NCBI GenBank assembly: GCA_031291075.1
Contig: JARLJS010000123.1
Coordinates: forward strand, 1 to 64,000
Length of the DNA: 64,000 nt
Origin: Nevskia sp.
GTDB lineage: Bacteria; Pseudomonadota; Gammaproteobacteria; Nevskiales; Nevskiaceae
Direction: 5' to 3'
The first letter of the stretch is position 1, and the number at the start of each line of letters is the position of its first letter. Below, piece by piece: positions 46,577 to 61,715 of this stretch. The notes under the pieces were generated by a model. It saw nothing but the letters and a program-made list of their open reading frames with translations. It ran no database searches and was not told the DNA's origin. The translations under genes and the position numbers were made by a program.

Positions 46577-46662
46577 CAGTCCGCAAATGAACGCAAATAA
46601 ACGCAAATGCAGAGAAGTCATAGCCACATGATTTGCGTTCATTTGCGTTTATTTGCGGACTG
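46577..46662. repeat. Palindrome with tandem decamer arms (NCGCAAATRA)3, copy 1
   Basis: Left arm CAGTCCGCAAATGAACGCAAATAAACGCAAAT (46577-46608); right arm ATTTGCGTTCATTTGCGTTTATTTGCGGACTG (46631-46662). Confidence 0.93.
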
Positions 46663-54480: not shown

Positions 54481-54591
54481 AGGTGGCGGCTACGCGGTAC
54501 ACTTGGCCGTACGGGAGCAGTTCTTGCCAAGTCTTCCAGGCGCGACCCATGCAAGCGCAGGTTCGCGTATTCCATCCGATTCCCCGATCCC

Positions 54592-55113
54592 ATGTCCGCA
54601 GCCGATCTCGATTCCTACGTCCGCGCCGTCCCCGATTTCCCCAAGCCCGGCATCCTGTTCCGCGATATCACGCCCCTGCTCAACGACGCCGGCGCCTTCG
54701 CCACGGCGATCGATTGCTTCGCCGGGCTGATCGAGCCGTACCGGGTGCAGGGGCTGGTGGCGATCGAGTCGCGTGGCTTCATCTTCGGTGCGGCGCTGGC
54801 GCACCATATGCACCTGCCGCTGCTGCTGGTGCGCAAGCCCGGCAAGCTGCCGCGGCGCACGGTGAGCGCCGCCTACGAGCTCGAATACGGCATGGACAGC
54901 ATCGAGATGCACGCGGAGGACATCGTGTCGGACCGGCCCTACGCGGTGATCGACGACGTCATCGCCACCGGCGGCACGGCCGCCGCGGCCGCCGGGCTGG
55001 TGGAGCAGTACGGTGGTCGGGTGGCTTGTTGCGCCTTCCTGATCGAGCTGGCTCTACTTAAGGGGCGCGAGCGGTTGGCCGGGCACGCGGTGGAAAGCGT
55101 GCTGAAGTATTAA
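54592..55113 (+). CDS. apt: Adenine phosphoribosyltransferase
   Basis: VRAVPDFPKPGILFRDITPLLND; AIESRGFIFGAALAHHM; YAVIDDVIATGGTAAAA PRPP-binding motif. Confidence 0.96.
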   Translation: MSAADLDSYVRAVPDFPKPGILFRDITPLLNDAGAFATAIDCFAGLIEPYRVQGLVAIESRGFIFGAALAHHMHLPLLLVRKPGKLPRRTVSAAYELEYGMDSIEMHAEDIVSDRPYAVIDDVIATGGTAAAAAGLVEQYGGRVACCAFLIELALLKGRERLAGHAVESVLKY

Positions 55114-55295
55114 CACAACTTAACCGCGATGTGCCGCACCGGGCGGCTGGCAACGGTGCGCGGAGTGAGTAAGAATTAACCACGGCAGAGGGTGTCCGGG
55201 GGGCACGACAGTGACAGCGAAGCAGCGAGGGGCGAACTTGACCGGGCCGGTGTCGGCCGGTCGCTTCGTATCCGCCGCCTTGCCGGGAGGCCGCC

Positions 55296-55712
55296 GTGGA
55301 CTTTGAGGCCGGCCTGCCGATCCTGATCGCCTCCTTCGCCGGCGTGCTGCTGTTCAGCTGGCTGCAGCTCGAGCGGCGCATCATCGCCCACAACCTGCGG
55401 ATCTATGCCGCTACCAAGCCGGCCTCGGCGGTGACCGCCGGCCTGGAACGCACCTATTCGCGGGTGCGCAAGATGGTGCTGTGGTCGAGCCTGGCGGCAC
55501 CTTCGGTGATGGCGTTCTCCGGCCAGCTCGACGAGCACGGCGTGGCCGAGGCTTTCAGCGGCGCCCTGCAGGTGATCGCCCCGTTCACCTCGGCCTGCTT
55601 CTCCGCGGCCGTCACCTGGCTCATCATCGTCTCCGCCGTGGTCGTCCATACCGCCCATTGCCGGCTGCTGGAGCAGTTCCGCTCCACCGGCCAGCGCAAG
55701 GAATTCTGGTAA
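55296..55712 (+). CDS. Small membrane protein of unknown function
   Basis: 138 aa, three hydrophobic segments, plausible GTG start; coding-like composition only. Confidence 0.5.
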   Translation: MDFEAGLPILIASFAGVLLFSWLQLERRIIAHNLRIYAATKPASAVTAGLERTYSRVRKMVLWSSLAAPSVMAFSGQLDEHGVAEAFSGALQVIAPFTSACFSAAVTWLIIVSAVVVHTAHCRLLEQFRSTGQRKEFW

Positions 55713-55880
55713 GGAATTGCGGTAATCGAAATTACCGAAGCGGCCTGATCCCGTTCGTTTCGCCACCAGGATTGGTGCAGCGCGTTATAATCCGGTTTGC
55801 CGCTCAGGGCGCCCCAAGGGTTTTTCGTTTCTGCTCGCACATGGCCTGTGCTTGCATCCCCCAACTTTTACGAACACGAA

Positions 55881-58800
55881 ATGACCGACTACCAACTGAC
55901 TGAGAGCTGGCGCGGTACCGCGGAGTCGTATCAGGACTTCATCCTCCCCTTGGTGTCGCGCACGTTCGCGCTGACCATCCCGCAGTTGCCGGCTCCGCTG
56001 GGCCGGGTGGTGGCCAATGCCTACCTGCTGTGCCGGGTGGCCGATACCATCGAGGACGACGTTGCTCTCAGCGCCGCGGACAAGCGCCGCTACGCGGAGG
56101 CTTTCGTCGACGTCGTCAACGGCCGCGCCGAGGCGGCGCCCCTGGCCGAGGAACTGGGCCCGCTGCTGTCGCTGGAGACTATCGCGGCCGAGCGCAACCT
56201 GGTGCGCCAGCTGCCGCTGGTGATCGAGATCCTGCGCAGCTTCCGGCCGGCGCAGCGTGGCGCCGTCGAGCGCTGCGTCGCCATCATGTGCCGCGGCATG
56301 CACCGCTTCCAGCAGAACGCCGGAGTGCAGGGGCTGGGCACGCTGCGCGACATGGACCGCTATTGCTACTACGTCGCCGGCGTGGTGGGCGAGATGCTCA
56401 CCGACCTGTTCTGCGATTTCGACCCCGCCATCGCCGCCCGCCGCGAAGCGATGACGCAGCTGGCCACCTCCTTCGGCCAGGCCCTGCAGATGACCAACAT
56501 CCTCAAGGACCAGTGGGAGGATCGCGCCCGCGGCGCCTGCTGGCTGCCGCGCGAGGTGTTCGAGCGTCATGGCGTCGACCTCGCGGGCCTGCAGGCCGGG
56601 AGCTACACGCCCGCCTACGGTGCGGCCCTGACCGAGCTGGTCGGCGTGGCCCATGCCCACCTCCGCAACGCCCTGTCCTACACCCTGGAGATCCCGGCGC
56701 AGCACACCGGCATCCGCCGGTTCTGCCTGTGGGCGCTGGGCCTGGCGGTGCTGACGCTGAAGAACATCCACCGCAAGCCCGAGTTCACCAGCGGTAACGA
56801 GATCAAGGTGTCCCGCGCCGCGGTGGCGCGCACCATCATGGTCTGCAACGTGGCCGCCAAGCGCGACGCGCTGCTGCACCGCATGTTCGATTTCGCCTGG
56901 CGCGATCTGCCGCTCACCCCCCTGGCCGGGTCCTGGCAGGCCGGTGAGAGCGGCGCCGGTGGTTGGTCGCCGTCCCCGCAGCTGGCGCTGGCCGGCGCCG
57001 CGGCCGCGTTCGACGGCGGCCCGGCCGCCGCTCCGGCAGAGTCCAACCGGCTCGAATTCCGCGGTTCGGTGCGGCAGGTGGCCGGCCTGGCACGGCCCGC
57101 CAGCTTGCGCGCGCCGGCGCCGCTCCGGCCGACGCCGGAGTTGGCAACGCCGCCGCTCGACCGCGCCGTCGACCGCGCACGCGAGGCGCTGATGGCGCTG
57201 CAGCGCGAGGACGGGCACTGGTGCTTCGAGTTCGAGACCGACTGCACCATCTCCGCCGAATACATCCTGATGATGCACTTCATCGACGAGATCGACGACG
57301 TGCTGCAAGAGAAGCTGGCCCGCTACATCCGCTCCAAGCAGCGCGTGGACACCCATGGCGGCTGGCCGCTGTACCAGGATGGCGCCATCGACCTGTCGTG
57401 CACGGTGAAGTCCTACTATGCCCTGAAGGCGGCCGGCGATTCCGCCGACGCGCCGCACATGCGCCGCGCCCGCGAGGTGATCCTGTCCCTGGGCGGCGCG
57501 GCCAAGAGCAACGTCTTCACCCGCATCCTGCTGGCCATGTTCGAGCAGGTGCCGTGGCGCGCCGCGCCGTACGTGCCGGTGGAGATCATGCTGTTCCCGA
57601 AATGGGCGCCGTTCCACCTGGACAAGGTGTCCTACTGGGCGCGCGCCACCATGGTGCCGCTGTTCATCCTGTGCTCGCTCAAGGCCAAGGCCAGGAATCC
57701 GCGCGGCGTCCACGTGCGCGAGTTGTTCGTCACGCCGCCCGAGGAGGAGCGCCACTACTTCTCCAGCGAAGGCTTCGTCAACAAGCTGTTCCAGGTGCTG
57801 GATAACGTCGGCCGCGCCTGCGATCCGCTGATCCCGAAGTCGCTGCGCGCCAGGGCGATCCGCAAGGCCGAGCAGTGGTTCCTGCCGCGCCTCAACGGCG
57901 AGGACGGCCTCGGCGCGATCTTTCCGCCGATGGTCAACGCGCTGGAGGCGATGGACCTGCTGGGCTACCCGAAGGACCACCCGGCCCGCGCCACCTGCCT
58001 GAAGTCGCTGCAGAAGCTGGTGGTGCAGCGCGCCGACGGCACGGCGTTCTGCCAGCCCTGCGTGTCTCCGGTGTGGGATACCGGCTGGAGCGCGATGGCC
58101 CTGCTGCGCGCGGCGGACGACCAGCGGACCCGCGACGCGGTGACGCGCGCGCTGCAGTGGCTGGTGCCGCTGCAGGAATTGGAGCTGAAAGGCGACTGGG
58201 CGGTCAACGCGCCGGACCTGGCGCCGGGCGGCTGGGCCTTCCAGTACGCCAACGGCTACTACCCGGACCTGGACGACACCGCCATGGTGGCCGGCCTCAT
58301 GCACGTCGCCCGCAAGGGTGAGTACAACGAGCGCATCGAGCGTGCGGCCGACTGGCTGGTGGGGATGCAGTCCGACAACGGCGGCTTCGCCGCTTTCGAC
58401 CGCAACAACACCTGCTACTACATCAATCACATCCCGTTCGCCGACCACGGCGCCATGCTCGATCCGCCGACCGAGGATGTGTCCGGCCGCGTGCTGGCCT
58501 GCCTGGGCGTGCTCAAGCGCGACAAGGACCGCGAGGCGATCCGCCGCTGCGTCGATTACCTGAAGCAGGCGCAGCTGCCGGACGGTTCCTTCTGGGGCCG
58601 TTGGGGCACCAACTACGTCTACGGCACCTGGTCGGTGCTGGCCGGCCTGGCACTGGTGGGCGAGGATCTGAAGCAGCCGTGGATCCGCAAGTCGATCGAC
58701 TGGCTCAAGTCGAAGCAGCACGCCGACGGCGGTTGGGGTGAAACCAACGACAGTTACGAGTATCCCCAGCTGCGCGGCAGCAACGGCGGCGTCAGCACCT

Positions 58801-59042
58801 CGCATTCCACCGCCTGGGCCCTGCTGGGCCTGCTGGCGGCCGGCGAGCACCGCTCCGACACGGTACGGCGCGGCATTGACTGGCTGGTCGCCAACCAGGG
58901 CGATAACGGGTTGTGGCAGAACCCGAGCTACAACGCGCCGGGATTCCCGCGCGTGTTCTATCTCAAGTACCACGGCTACGACGCCTACTTCCCGCTGTGG
59001 GCCCTGACCCGCTACCGGCAGCTGATGGCGCGCAACGCCTGA
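55881..59042 (+). CDS. Squalene synthase - squalene-hopene cyclase fusion protein
   Basis: One uninterrupted 1053-codon frame. N-domain: SRTFALTIPQLP, DTIEDD, YCYYVAGVVGEML, NILKDQWED (squalene-synthase Asp-rich motifs). C-domain: multiple QW-type repeats and DLDDTA at D796 (SHC protonation motif). Confidence 0.92.
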   Translation: MTDYQLTESWRGTAESYQDFILPLVSRTFALTIPQLPAPLGRVVANAYLLCRVADTIEDDVALSAADKRRYAEAFVDVVNGRAEAAPLAEELGPLLSLETIAAERNLVRQLPLVIEILRSFRPAQRGAVERCVAIMCRGMHRFQQNAGVQGLGTLRDMDRYCYYVAGVVGEMLTDLFCDFDPAIAARREAMTQLATSFGQALQMTNILKDQWEDRARGACWLPREVFERHGVDLAGLQAGSYTPAYGAALTELVGVAHAHLRNALSYTLEIPAQHTGIRRFCLWALGLAVLTLKNIHRKPEFTSGNEIKVSRAAVARTIMVCNVAAKRDALLHRMFDFAWRDLPLTPLAGSWQAGESGAGGWSPSPQLALAGAAAAFDGGPAAAPAESNRLEFRGSVRQVAGLARPASLRAPAPLRPTPELATPPLDRAVDRAREALMALQREDGHWCFEFETDCTISAEYILMMHFIDEIDDVLQEKLARYIRSKQRVDTHGGWPLYQDGAIDLSCTVKSYYALKAAGDSADAPHMRRAREVILSLGGAAKSNVFTRILLAMFEQVPWRAAPYVPVEIMLFPKWAPFHLDKVSYWARATMVPLFILCSLKAKARNPRGVHVRELFVTPPEEERHYFSSEGFVNKLFQVLDNVGRACDPLIPKSLRARAIRKAEQWFLPRLNGEDGLGAIFPPMVNALEAMDLLGYPKDHPARATCLKSLQKLVVQRADGTAFCQPCVSPVWDTGWSAMALLRAADDQRTRDAVTRALQWLVPLQELELKGDWAVNAPDLAPGGWAFQYANGYYPDLDDTAMVAGLMHVARKGEYNERIERAADWLVGMQSDNGGFAAFDRNNTCYYINHIPFADHGAMLDPPTEDVSGRVLACLGVLKRDKDREAIRRCVDYLKQAQLPDGSFWGRWGTNYVYGTWSVLAGLALVGEDLKQPWIRKSIDWLKSKQHADGGWGETNDSYEYPQLRGSNGGVSTSHSTAWALLGLLAAGEHRSDTVRRGIDWLVANQGDNGLWQNPSYNAPGFPRVFYLKYHGYDAYFPLWALTRYRQLMARNA

Positions 59043-59792
59043 GTGGCCGGGGTCGGGGTGGTGGTCGCGCTCGCCGCCGAGGCGGGCGTGCTGGCTGGGC
59101 GTCGGCTGCGGCCGGGAATGGTGGAGCGGCTTGAGGCCGGCGTGCTGGTCCAGCTCTGCGGCATGGGACCGGCCGCAGCGGCCGCCGCCGCCCAGGCCCT
59201 GGCGGATGCCGGCGCGTCCGCTCTGGCGGTGTTCGGCGTGGCCGGCGCGCTCGATCCCGGCTTCGCACCCGGCACCCTGCTATGCCCGGCACAGATCGTC
59301 GCCGAGGATGGCGACCACTACGCGGTGGATTCCGCCTGGCGCTTCCGACTGGCGGGCCGTCTCGGTGAATCCTTGAGCGACCGCACGCTGCTGACGGTGC
59401 GCCTGCCGCTGCTCACCCCACAAGCCAAGGCCGAGGCGCAGCGCCGTTTCGACGCCGTCGCAGTGGACATGGAAAGCGCCGCGGTGGCCGGGGTGGCGCG
59501 CTCGCGCGGCCTGCCGCTGCTGGTGCTGCGCGCCATCGCCGACGGCGCCGGCGACAGCATCCCAGGACCGTTGGCCGATGCCATCGACCGCTGGGGCCGG
59601 GCGCGTCCTCTCGCAGTGGCTGCCGCGCTATTGCGCCAACCGCCAATGCTGCTCCGCCTGCCGCGCTTGGCCGGCACCATGAACCGGGCGACCGTGGCGC
59701 TGCGCAGTGCAATTCGTGCGAGCGGTGCCGATCTGGCCTATGGCCCGGCATCGCATCTCGCCAATGAAGCAAACCAGGCAGTCCGCGAATGA
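59043..59792 (+). CDS. hpnG: Hopanoid-associated phosphorylase (nucleoside phosphorylase-like)
   Basis: GTG start abuts the cyclase stop; VVALAAEAGVLAGRR; VFGVAGALDPGFAPGTLL; VDMESAAVAGVARSRGLPLLVLRAIADGA. Confidence 0.85.
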   Translation: MAGVGVVVALAAEAGVLAGRRLRPGMVERLEAGVLVQLCGMGPAAAAAAAQALADAGASALAVFGVAGALDPGFAPGTLLCPAQIVAEDGDHYAVDSAWRFRLAGRLGESLSDRTLLTVRLPLLTPQAKAEAQRRFDAVAVDMESAAVAGVARSRGLPLLVLRAIADGAGDSIPGPLADAIDRWGRARPLAVAAALLRQPPMLLRLPRLAGTMNRATVALRSAIRASGADLAYGPASHLANEANQAVRE

Positions 59793-59861
59793 ACGCAAAT
59801 AAACGCAAATGAAATCCAAGACCCGCTTTTTATTTGCGTTTATTTGCGTTTATTTGCGGAC
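59779..59861. repeat. Palindrome with tandem decamer arms (NCGCAAATRA)3, copy 2
   Basis: Left arm CAGTCCGCGAATGAACGCAAATAAACGCAAAT (59779-59810); right arm ATTTGCGTTTATTTGCGTTTATTTGCGGAC (59832-59861). Overlaps the last codons and stop of hpnG. Confidence 0.93.
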
Positions 59862-59870
59862 CCTCCCGGA

Positions 59871-60878
59871 ATGACCGACAGCTCCGTCAAAACCCTGGCC
59901 CTGGTCACCGGCGCCACCGGCTTCGTCGGCTCGGCGGTGGTGCGCCGCCTGCTCGACGAGGGCCTGGCGGTGCGCGTGCTGGCGCGTCCCGGCTCCGATC
60001 GCCGCAACCTCGCCGGACTGGAGCTGGAAGTGGCGGAGGGCGACCTCAACGACGCGGCCTCGCTGCGGTCCGCCTGCGCCGGGTGCGCGGCGCTGTTCCA
60101 CGTCGCCGCCGACTACCGCACCTGGGCCCCCAAGCCGGAGGAGCTGTACCGCGCCAACGTCGAGGGCACGCGCTCGCTGCTGCTGGCGGCGCGCGATGCC
60201 GGCGTGCAGCGCATCGTCTACACCAGCAGCGTGGCCGTGCTCGGCATCCCCAAGGACGGCACGCCGGGCGACGAGGACACGCCGGTCAGCGTGGCCGACA
60301 TGATCGGCCACTACAAGCGCTCCAAGTACCTGGCCGAGGAGGCGGTACGCGAACTGGCCGGCGCCGGCCTGCCGGTGGTGATCGTCAACCCCTCCACCCC
60401 GATCGGCCCGCGCGACCTCAAGCCCACGCCGACCGGCCGCATCGTGCTCGACGCCGCGGCCGGCAAGATGCCGGCCTACGTCGACACCGGCCTCAACATC
60501 GTGCACGTCGACGACGTCGCCATGGGCCATTGGCTGGCCTATAGCAAGGGCGCCGCCGGCCGGCGCTACGTGCTGGGCGGCACCGATATGACCCTGCGCG
60601 AAATCCTCGCCGTGATCGCCGACATCGTCGGCCGCAAGCCGCCCGCGATCCGGCTGCCGCATGCGGCGGTGATGCCGGTCGCGTACGTGGCGGAAGCCTT
60701 CGCCCGCCTCACCGGGGTGGCCCCGGTGGCGACGGTGGAGGAGGTGCGGATGTCGAAGAAGCACATGTTCTTTTCCAGCGCGCGGGCGCAGCGCGAACTG
60801 GGCTATACCATCCGGCCGCCGCGGCAGGCGCTGGAGGACGCGGTGCGGTGGTATCGGGAGAATGGGTATCTGCGGTAG
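59871..60878 (+). CDS. hpnA: Hopanoid-associated sugar epimerase
   Basis: LVTGATGFVGSAVVRRLLDEG; YTSSVAVLG; YKRSKYLAEEAV; VIVNPSTPIGPRDLKPTPTGRIVLD. Confidence 0.9.
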   Translation: MTDSSVKTLALVTGATGFVGSAVVRRLLDEGLAVRVLARPGSDRRNLAGLELEVAEGDLNDAASLRSACAGCAALFHVAADYRTWAPKPEELYRANVEGTRSLLLAARDAGVQRIVYTSSVAVLGIPKDGTPGDEDTPVSVADMIGHYKRSKYLAEEAVRELAGAGLPVVIVNPSTPIGPRDLKPTPTGRIVLDAAAGKMPAYVDTGLNIVHVDDVAMGHWLAYSKGAAGRRYVLGGTDMTLREILAVIADIVGRKPPAIRLPHAAVMPVAYVAEAFARLTGVAPVATVEEVRMSKKHMFFSSARAQRELGYTIRPPRQALEDAVRWYRENGYLR

Positions 60879-60908
60879 GGTGTTTGTCATCGTTCCCGCG
60901 GAAGCCCC

Positions 60909-60942
60909 GGTAGGGCGGGCAAAGCGCAGCGTGCCCACGCGG
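60909..60942. repeat. REP-like intergenic repeat
   Basis: GGTAGGGCGGGCAAAGCGCAGCGTGCCCACGCGG; shares GTAGGGCGGGC with 4526-4579. Confidence 0.6.
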
Positions 60943-61022
60943 TTGGCGGCGGTCTCAAACTCTCGCGGCACGCGGTTCGCGTGGTGACGGTTCCCGCGAA
61001 GCACACACCACGGTATCAACGT

Positions 61023-61715
61023 ATGCGAGGAATCCTGCCGGGAGCACTCATAGGCACTGTGCTCATACTCTGCTTGGTCGCTTGCAGTGCGGCCCCGGTA
61101 GAGACGGCCTCCGCTCCAACGACGCCCACCGACGCCCCGCAGCCCCCCGCCACCATCTACGTCCTCCGCCGCGGCTGGCATACCGACCTGGTGCTGTCGG
61201 TGGATGAGCTACGTGGTCCCGTCGCAACGCTGGGCCCGGCATTCCCCGGCGCCCGCTACCTGATCTTCGGCTTCGGCGACCGCCAGTACATGCTGGCCAC
61301 CCACCGCAACCTCGGGCACCTGCTGCTGGCGCCGCTGCCGGGGGCGGGGATCTTGCTCATCACCGGCTTGCGCGATGCGCCGGCCGAGGTGTACGGCGCG
61401 GAGCACGTGCAAGCGCTTTCGCTCGGTCCGGCGCAGCTGGCGGCGCTCGACGCCTTCCTCTGGCAATCGCTGGAGCCGGACGGCGACGGTACCGTGCATC
61501 CGTACATGCAGGGCAACTACGCCGGCAACGTCTACTACTCCTCCAGCAAGACTTACGACGGTCTCTACACCTGCAACACCTGGACTGCGGAAGCGCTGAA
61601 GAGCGGCGGGTTGCCGGTACGCAGCGCCGGCGTCCTGTTTGCTGGGCAGGTGTGGGATCAGGCGCAGGCCGTTTCGCGCCGGTCGGAAGCCGAAGGTGCG
61701 ACGCCAAGGGACTGA
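61023..61715 (+). CDS. DUF2459-like predicted lipoprotein
   Basis: Lipobox LILCLVACSAAP; IYVLRRGWHTDLVLSVDEL; FGFGDRQYML; YDGLYTCNTWTAEALKSGGLPV. Confidence 0.8.
   Translation: MRGILPGALIGTVLILCLVACSAAPVETASAPTTPTDAPQPPATIYVLRRGWHTDLVLSVDELRGPVATLGPAFPGARYLIFGFGDRQYMLATHRNLGHLLLAPLPGAGILLITGLRDAPAEVYGAEHVQALSLGPAQLAALDAFLWQSLEPDGDGTVHPYMQGNYAGNVYYSSSKTYDGLYTCNTWTAEALKSGGLPVRSAGVLFAGQVWDQAQAVSRRSEAEGATPRD

Follow-up and report, generated by a model that had tools for sequence, protein, structure and literature searches.

We analysed a 64,000-nucleotide stretch of a Nevskia sp. contig (the window), in which one forward-strand gene encodes a squalene synthase (SQS)-type head and a complete squalene-hopene cyclase (SHC), joined by an Ala/Pro-rich linker (Table 1). 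The gene is a single uninterrupted frame of 1053 aa with no internal stop and no N, and a domain search of its product matched SQS_PSY and both SQHop_cyclase halves. An earlier, sequence-only reading had proposed this arrangement, with an SQS-like head and an SHC-like cyclase in one frame; the frame itself and the Pfam and NCBIfam matches confirm it, and the main catalytic motifs D55TIEDD, N206ILKDQWED (containing D210) and D796LDDTA are intact and, like the linker (aa 348–423), lie where that reading had placed them. Frame length alone is weak proof of such a gene, since GC-rich DNA gives long frames by chance; for example, the opposite strand has an open frame (55785–58973, minus strand, 1062 aa), probably a shadow frame from GC-rich coding DNA, that spans nearly all of the fusion gene. 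The reality of the SQS-SHC fusion, which is confirmed, rests on two full-length domain matches and on a second fused genome with a frame-keeping linker.

Table 1. Coordinates of the fusion gene, its parts and the genes directly downstream (positions in the window).
Feature	Position	Strand	Basis or remark
Whole fusion gene	55881..59042	+	ATG start, TGA stop; nearest fused relative, G003, begins at the same residue
SQS-type head (SQS_PSY, aa 25–312)	55953..56816	+	Pfam PF00494, 193 bits
First Asp-rich motif, D55TIEDD	56043..56060	+	Asp and Glu invariant in 14 relatives
Y161	56361..56363	+	Aligns with catalytic Tyr171 of human squalene synthase
Second Asp-rich motif, N206ILKDQWED (D210)	56496..56522	+	Alignment with relatives
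Ala/Pro-rich linker, aa 348–423 (76 aa)	56922..57149	+	Predicted disordered, pLDDT <50
CTG where the separate shc of relative G007 has its ATG start	57087..57089	+	Alignment, weak here
SHC N-terminal domain, aa 430–718	57168..58034	+	PF13249 SQHop_cyclase_N, 419 bits
SHC C-terminal domain, aa 728–1047	58062..59021	+	PF13243 SQHop_cyclase_C, 444 bits
D796LDDTA, DxDD proton-donor motif	58266..58283	+	Aligns with D374–D377 of Alicyclobacillus SHC
hpnG-like gene	59043..59792	+	GTG start directly at the fusion stop (TGAGTG); scores 154 bits with TIGR03468, below its cut-off of 187
hpnA, hopanoid-associated sugar epimerase	59871..60878	+	TIGR03466, 506 bits, cut-off 368

The head exceeds the PF00494 gathering threshold of 26 bits by a wide margin and carries both Asp-rich motifs, which places it in the superfamily. 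Among the squalene-type NCBIfam models, the squalene synthase model TIGR01559 gave the best score (117 bits), ahead of HpnD (TIGR03465, 75.3 bits) and HpnC (TIGR03464, 54.5 bits). These values fall under the respective curated cut-offs of 287, 279 and 250 bits, and because of the first shortfall we describe the head as working like a TIGR01559 enzyme and do not file it as a formal member. Human squalene synthase has a catalytic Tyr171 (numbered by our own count along the alignment) and a Phe288 that serves the second half-reaction, and these TIGR01559-type residues align with Y161 and F281 of the head. The nearest solved relatives are eukaryotic squalene synthases; the human enzyme (1ezf, 3vj8), a stand-alone protein with ∼22% identity to the head, has the same fold, both Asp-rich motifs and the Tyr171 and Phe288 equivalents in common with it. 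The order of the scores (117 > 75 > 55 bits) and the solved relatives thus agree with the earlier assignment of the head to the SQS type and not to the HpnC/HpnD type. A genome-wide search (97% complete genome) for a second SQS_PSY gene returned the head as the sole match, and a search of the same genome for HpnE gave weak partial matches alone, the best at ∼30 bits where the cut-off is 283. Given a single SQS_PSY gene and no HpnE over the cut-off, the head is probably a one-enzyme squalene synthase that feeds its own cyclase, in line with the earlier proposal that HpnCDE is not needed.

The cyclase part (aa 423–1051) is a complete SHC, its C-terminal 625 aa matching both SHC halves. It scores 803 bits against TIGR01507 (cut-off 431), covering model positions 17–639 of 640, and combines the DxDD motif with QW-like repeats near residues 441, 946 and 1006. 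Alicyclobacillus acidocaldarius SHC (1sqc, 3sqc) shares the DxDD motif and 40% identity over this part, but is a stand-alone protein. A genome search with the SHC part found the cyclase of the fusion as the sole match.

We predicted the structure of the chain with AlphaFold2, using as input a small set of relatives plus two anchor rows in which the stop was read through and which served as alignment rows alone. Head and cyclase are confidently folded, the head resembling human SQS (TM 0.78 by target) and the cyclase part Alicyclobacillus SHC (TM 0.94 by target). Residues 348–423 have pLDDT values below 50 and the overall pTM is 0.64, so that the relative placement of the two domains is unreliable. 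The linkers of the window and of G003 are homologous and frame-keeping (44% identity), with shared blocks AGGW, SP, LA, AGA, AAF, SNR and EFRG, and dN/dS between the two genomes is 0.60 for the linker, 0.35 for the head and 0.25 for the cyclase. Judged by these blocks, which stay in one frame across two genomes, the linker behaves as translated sequence. Its length differs by lineage, being 72–74 aa in the genus, 31 aa in a fused gene from another genus of the family (G026) and 27–35 aa in a second family of the order (f6, perhaps Salinisphaeraceae). A search with the linker against the genus returned the G003 fusion and otherwise weak, low-scoring matches alone, and on that result the linker seems not to be a moved domain.

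The fusion locus is a hopanoid operon, because hpnG and hpnA lie directly downstream of the fusion gene. The hpnA frame is listed from TTG 59844, with ATG 59871 as the likely start, and HpnH is encoded on the same contig (76281–77243). Upstream of the fusion gene are dnaE, accA, tilS and apt. Downstream of hpnA, a gene for a DUF2459 protein (60981–61715, plus strand; PF09601, 90 bits, with a weak TIGR02117 match) is possibly part of the operon. Between hpnG and hpnA, an inverted repeat of the decamer TTTATTTGCG occupies 59781–59861 (34-nt arms, 91% complementary, 13-nt loop), and a similar inverted pair lies at 46582–46657. Two joined decamers, with one mismatch allowed, gave ∼40 matches in the genome, several of them in inverted pairs, against 21 for a backwards control; the repeats are a dispersed REP-like element. 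An Rfam scan of 54500–61500 gave no match, promoter and terminator scans gave nothing beyond chance, and the plasmid records contained no site covering most of the fusion. Beyond the window, on the same contig and ∼12 kb from the hopanoid operon of this gammaproteobacterium, are mevalonate-pathway genes (70978–73208, L127:15979–18209): a diphosphomevalonate decarboxylase (TIGR01240, 291 bits, over the cut-off) adjoins a frame that matches GHMP kinases weakly (27 bits).

To place the fusion among its relatives, we searched 85 genomes of the order, 35 of which had some match. Besides the window, the fused architecture is present in G003 (same genus, 80% identical), in G026 and in ten f6 genomes; these ten, from two genera, are all of the f6 genomes with the gene pair. 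In the order, sixteen loci instead have sqs and shc as separate neighbours that keep the gene order and strand, and this two-gene arrangement is found in most other members of the genus. In the separate pairs, 71–359 bp lie between the matched domains. Among the nearest 80 head loci in named genomes, two of which (L031 and L033) repeat genomes of the window's order, the cyclase is next door as a separate gene in 53, and none is fused. An even sample of the class likewise contained no fusion among the head-cyclase pairs checked outside the order, all of which are separate. Genomes outside the order with listed open frames of ∼1030–1090 aa (G095, G240, G343, G293, G303 and G330) were considered as candidates and rejected, as their sqs gene is followed by a stop. 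These results uphold the earlier statement that SQS and SHC are usually separate proteins, adjacent separate genes being found in all relatives checked outside the order. In another genome, G001 (L126, G001:C252), hpnG comes immediately after sqs and no cyclase separates them; the only cyclase found lies elsewhere and is distant (37% identity), and the operon looks as if it has lost shc by deletion, although the genome is 86% complete.

The pattern of fused and separate genes points to repeated joining. On a tree built from both domains, four changes are required to explain the fused label, and the f6 fused set forms one clade (support 100); separate head and cyclase trees likewise need four. 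A single clade of all fused rows was rejected (p-AU 2e-6), as was a clade of window, G003 and G026 (p-AU 4e-6). Since a single fused clade is rejected, the trees indicate that the sqs-shc operon pair was joined at least three times within the order. The history within the genus is not a simple single gain, because unfused G007 is sister to fused G003, both in the domain trees and by DnaE (94.4% identity, compared with 86.5% between window and G003), and a grouping of window with G003 is disfavored (p-AU 0.012). Re-splitting of a fused gene appears unlikely given that G007 and G001 share an sqs ending in MQHA-stop. For the genus this leaves two possibilities: a fused allele was passed between lineages by recombination, or fusion took place in parallel across the same stretch of intergenic DNA.

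The linker itself retains possible traces of its origin. When the DNA past the sqs stop of G001 is translated in a shifted frame, the result is TPELAAPPQRAARKPHKLEF, similar to SPELAFAGAPGAAF...SNRYEF of the G003 linker, and in both fused genes (window and G003) a CTG aligns with the ATG of the G007 shc, at a place where the alignment is weak. From this resemblance and this alignment, the linker seems to be former intergenic DNA that came into frame. In the corresponding scenario, which is partly shown, the ancestral state would be adjacent sqs and shc genes in one operon; a frame change would have bypassed the sqs stop, the old intergenic DNA would have been read through, and loss of the shc start codon would have left the joined gene.

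With good confidence, judging from sequence, we interpret the product as a bifunctional hopanoid enzyme in which an SQS-type head is tethered to a hopene cyclase, derived from a joined operon pair. The head would condense two FPP and reduce presqualene diphosphate with NADPH to squalene, a one-enzyme route that would make HpnCDE unnecessary. Squalene would then pass into the adjacent membrane and be taken up by the attached cyclase for conversion to hopene or hopanol. The fusion would set a 1:1 ratio and hold both enzymes at one membrane site.

The strongest competing explanation, and one with a substantial though less than even chance of being right, is that the fusion is neutral, neighboring operon genes having lost the intervening stop by chance to leave two independent beads on a string. 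In nearly all relatives the two genes already sit side by side, the matched domains being separated by the 71–359 bp noted above, near relatives in the same genus remain separate, and the linker evolves fast (dN/dS 0.60, 44% identity), all as expected for a chance join. A chance join fits less well with at least three such events in one order, with retention in ten f6 genomes of two genera and with the lack of any fusion at the loci that were checked beyond the order. Repeated origin and f6 retention mildly favor a gain from fusion over a neutral join. The more specific proposal that the fusion arose repeatedly in one order because tethering or channelling squalene confers a real advantage is one we advance only tentatively.

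Substrate channelling, which the sequence-only reading had suggested and in which squalene is handed straight from head to cyclase and bypasses the bulk membrane, seems unlikely. The two steps are consecutive, the intermediate is very hydrophobic, and the fusion has at least three origins and is present in 10/10 f6 genomes with the pair; however, the linker is long, predicted to be disordered and variable in length (27–35, 31 or 72–74 aa), the orientation of the domains is not predicted with confidence (pTM 0.64), and most relatives run the same chemistry with separate proteins. This flexible linker, with its lineage-dependent length, argues for tethering and a fixed stoichiometry over a rigid tunnel, and together with the unreliable domain placement it makes tethering the most that the sequence supports.

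Cleavage in the linker, or a second translation start, could split the chain in the cell into two working proteins. Being disordered, the linker is where cleavage would be likely, and it contains in-frame GTG (57069 and 57078) and TTG (57105 and 57141) codons. We consider such a split improbable, as there is no in-frame ATG from codon 335 to 438, no convincing ribosome-binding site precedes the linker GTG and TTG codons, and the former shc ATG site is CTG in both fused genes. It is more improbable still that the head yields another product, presqualene diphosphate alone or dehydrosqualene, with squalene supplied from elsewhere: its score under the curated squalene-synthase cut-off leaves room for this, but the 97%-complete genome has neither a second SQS_PSY gene nor an HpnE above cut-off, the best squalene-type curated model and the best solved relatives are squalene synthases, and F281 aligns with the human Phe288 of the second half-reaction. 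Finally, an assembly or sequencing error concealing a stop between two ordinary genes, which the sequence-only reading had named as a danger and which a draft genome of 302 contigs and an unfused near relative (G007) might suggest, is scarcely credible, given that G003, a separate genome, is fused as well and has a linker that is homologous, keeps the frame and shows dN/dS <1, that G007 differs throughout the whole region and not by one indel, and that G026 and f6, including a one-contig genome, are also fused.

Among known systems, gammaproteobacteria such as Dyella and Azomonas have sqs and shc as separate adjacent genes; these are like the fusion in enzymes, gene order and strand, the nearest pairs sharing 57–61% (head) and 68–84% (cyclase) identity with it, but they make two proteins where the window makes one. 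In bacterial diterpene synthase fusions the class II part acts first, whereas in SQS-SHC the class I head does. Bifunctional diterpene synthases of this class II/class I kind are published from bacteria (PMC11469919); they resemble SQS-SHC in fusing a class II cyclase-type fold to a class I prenyl-type fold and differ in their C20 substrate and in their families. Methylococcus capsulatus provides a characterized gammaproteobacterial Sqs (Ohtake 2014, as cited in PMC5462960). Fused hpnCD genes have been published from Acidobacteria subdivision 2 and from some Actinobacteria and Alphaproteobacteria (PMC5462960); like SQS-SHC they are natural fusions of adjacent squalene/hopanoid pathway genes, but they join two members of the SQS_PSY family, each working upstream of squalene, include no cyclase and still require HpnE. 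A literature search of open-licence papers found no description of an SQS-SHC fusion, and fused proteins may well be present in public databases, labelled as cyclases. Thus the possibility, raised earlier, that the fusion was already known in relatives holds in that relatives carry it and fails in that no published description was found.

The fusion brings together in a single chain the two steps that commit to hopanoid synthesis, squalene formation and cyclization, and illustrates a simple, repeatedly used route from an operon pair to one enzyme. Triterpene engineering gains a natural template from it, and fused G003 and unfused G007, only ∼10% apart in sequence, offer a clean natural comparison of the effect of fusion. 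If the reading of a repeated advantage is true, these genes would provide a ready test of channelling of membrane-bound triterpene intermediates.
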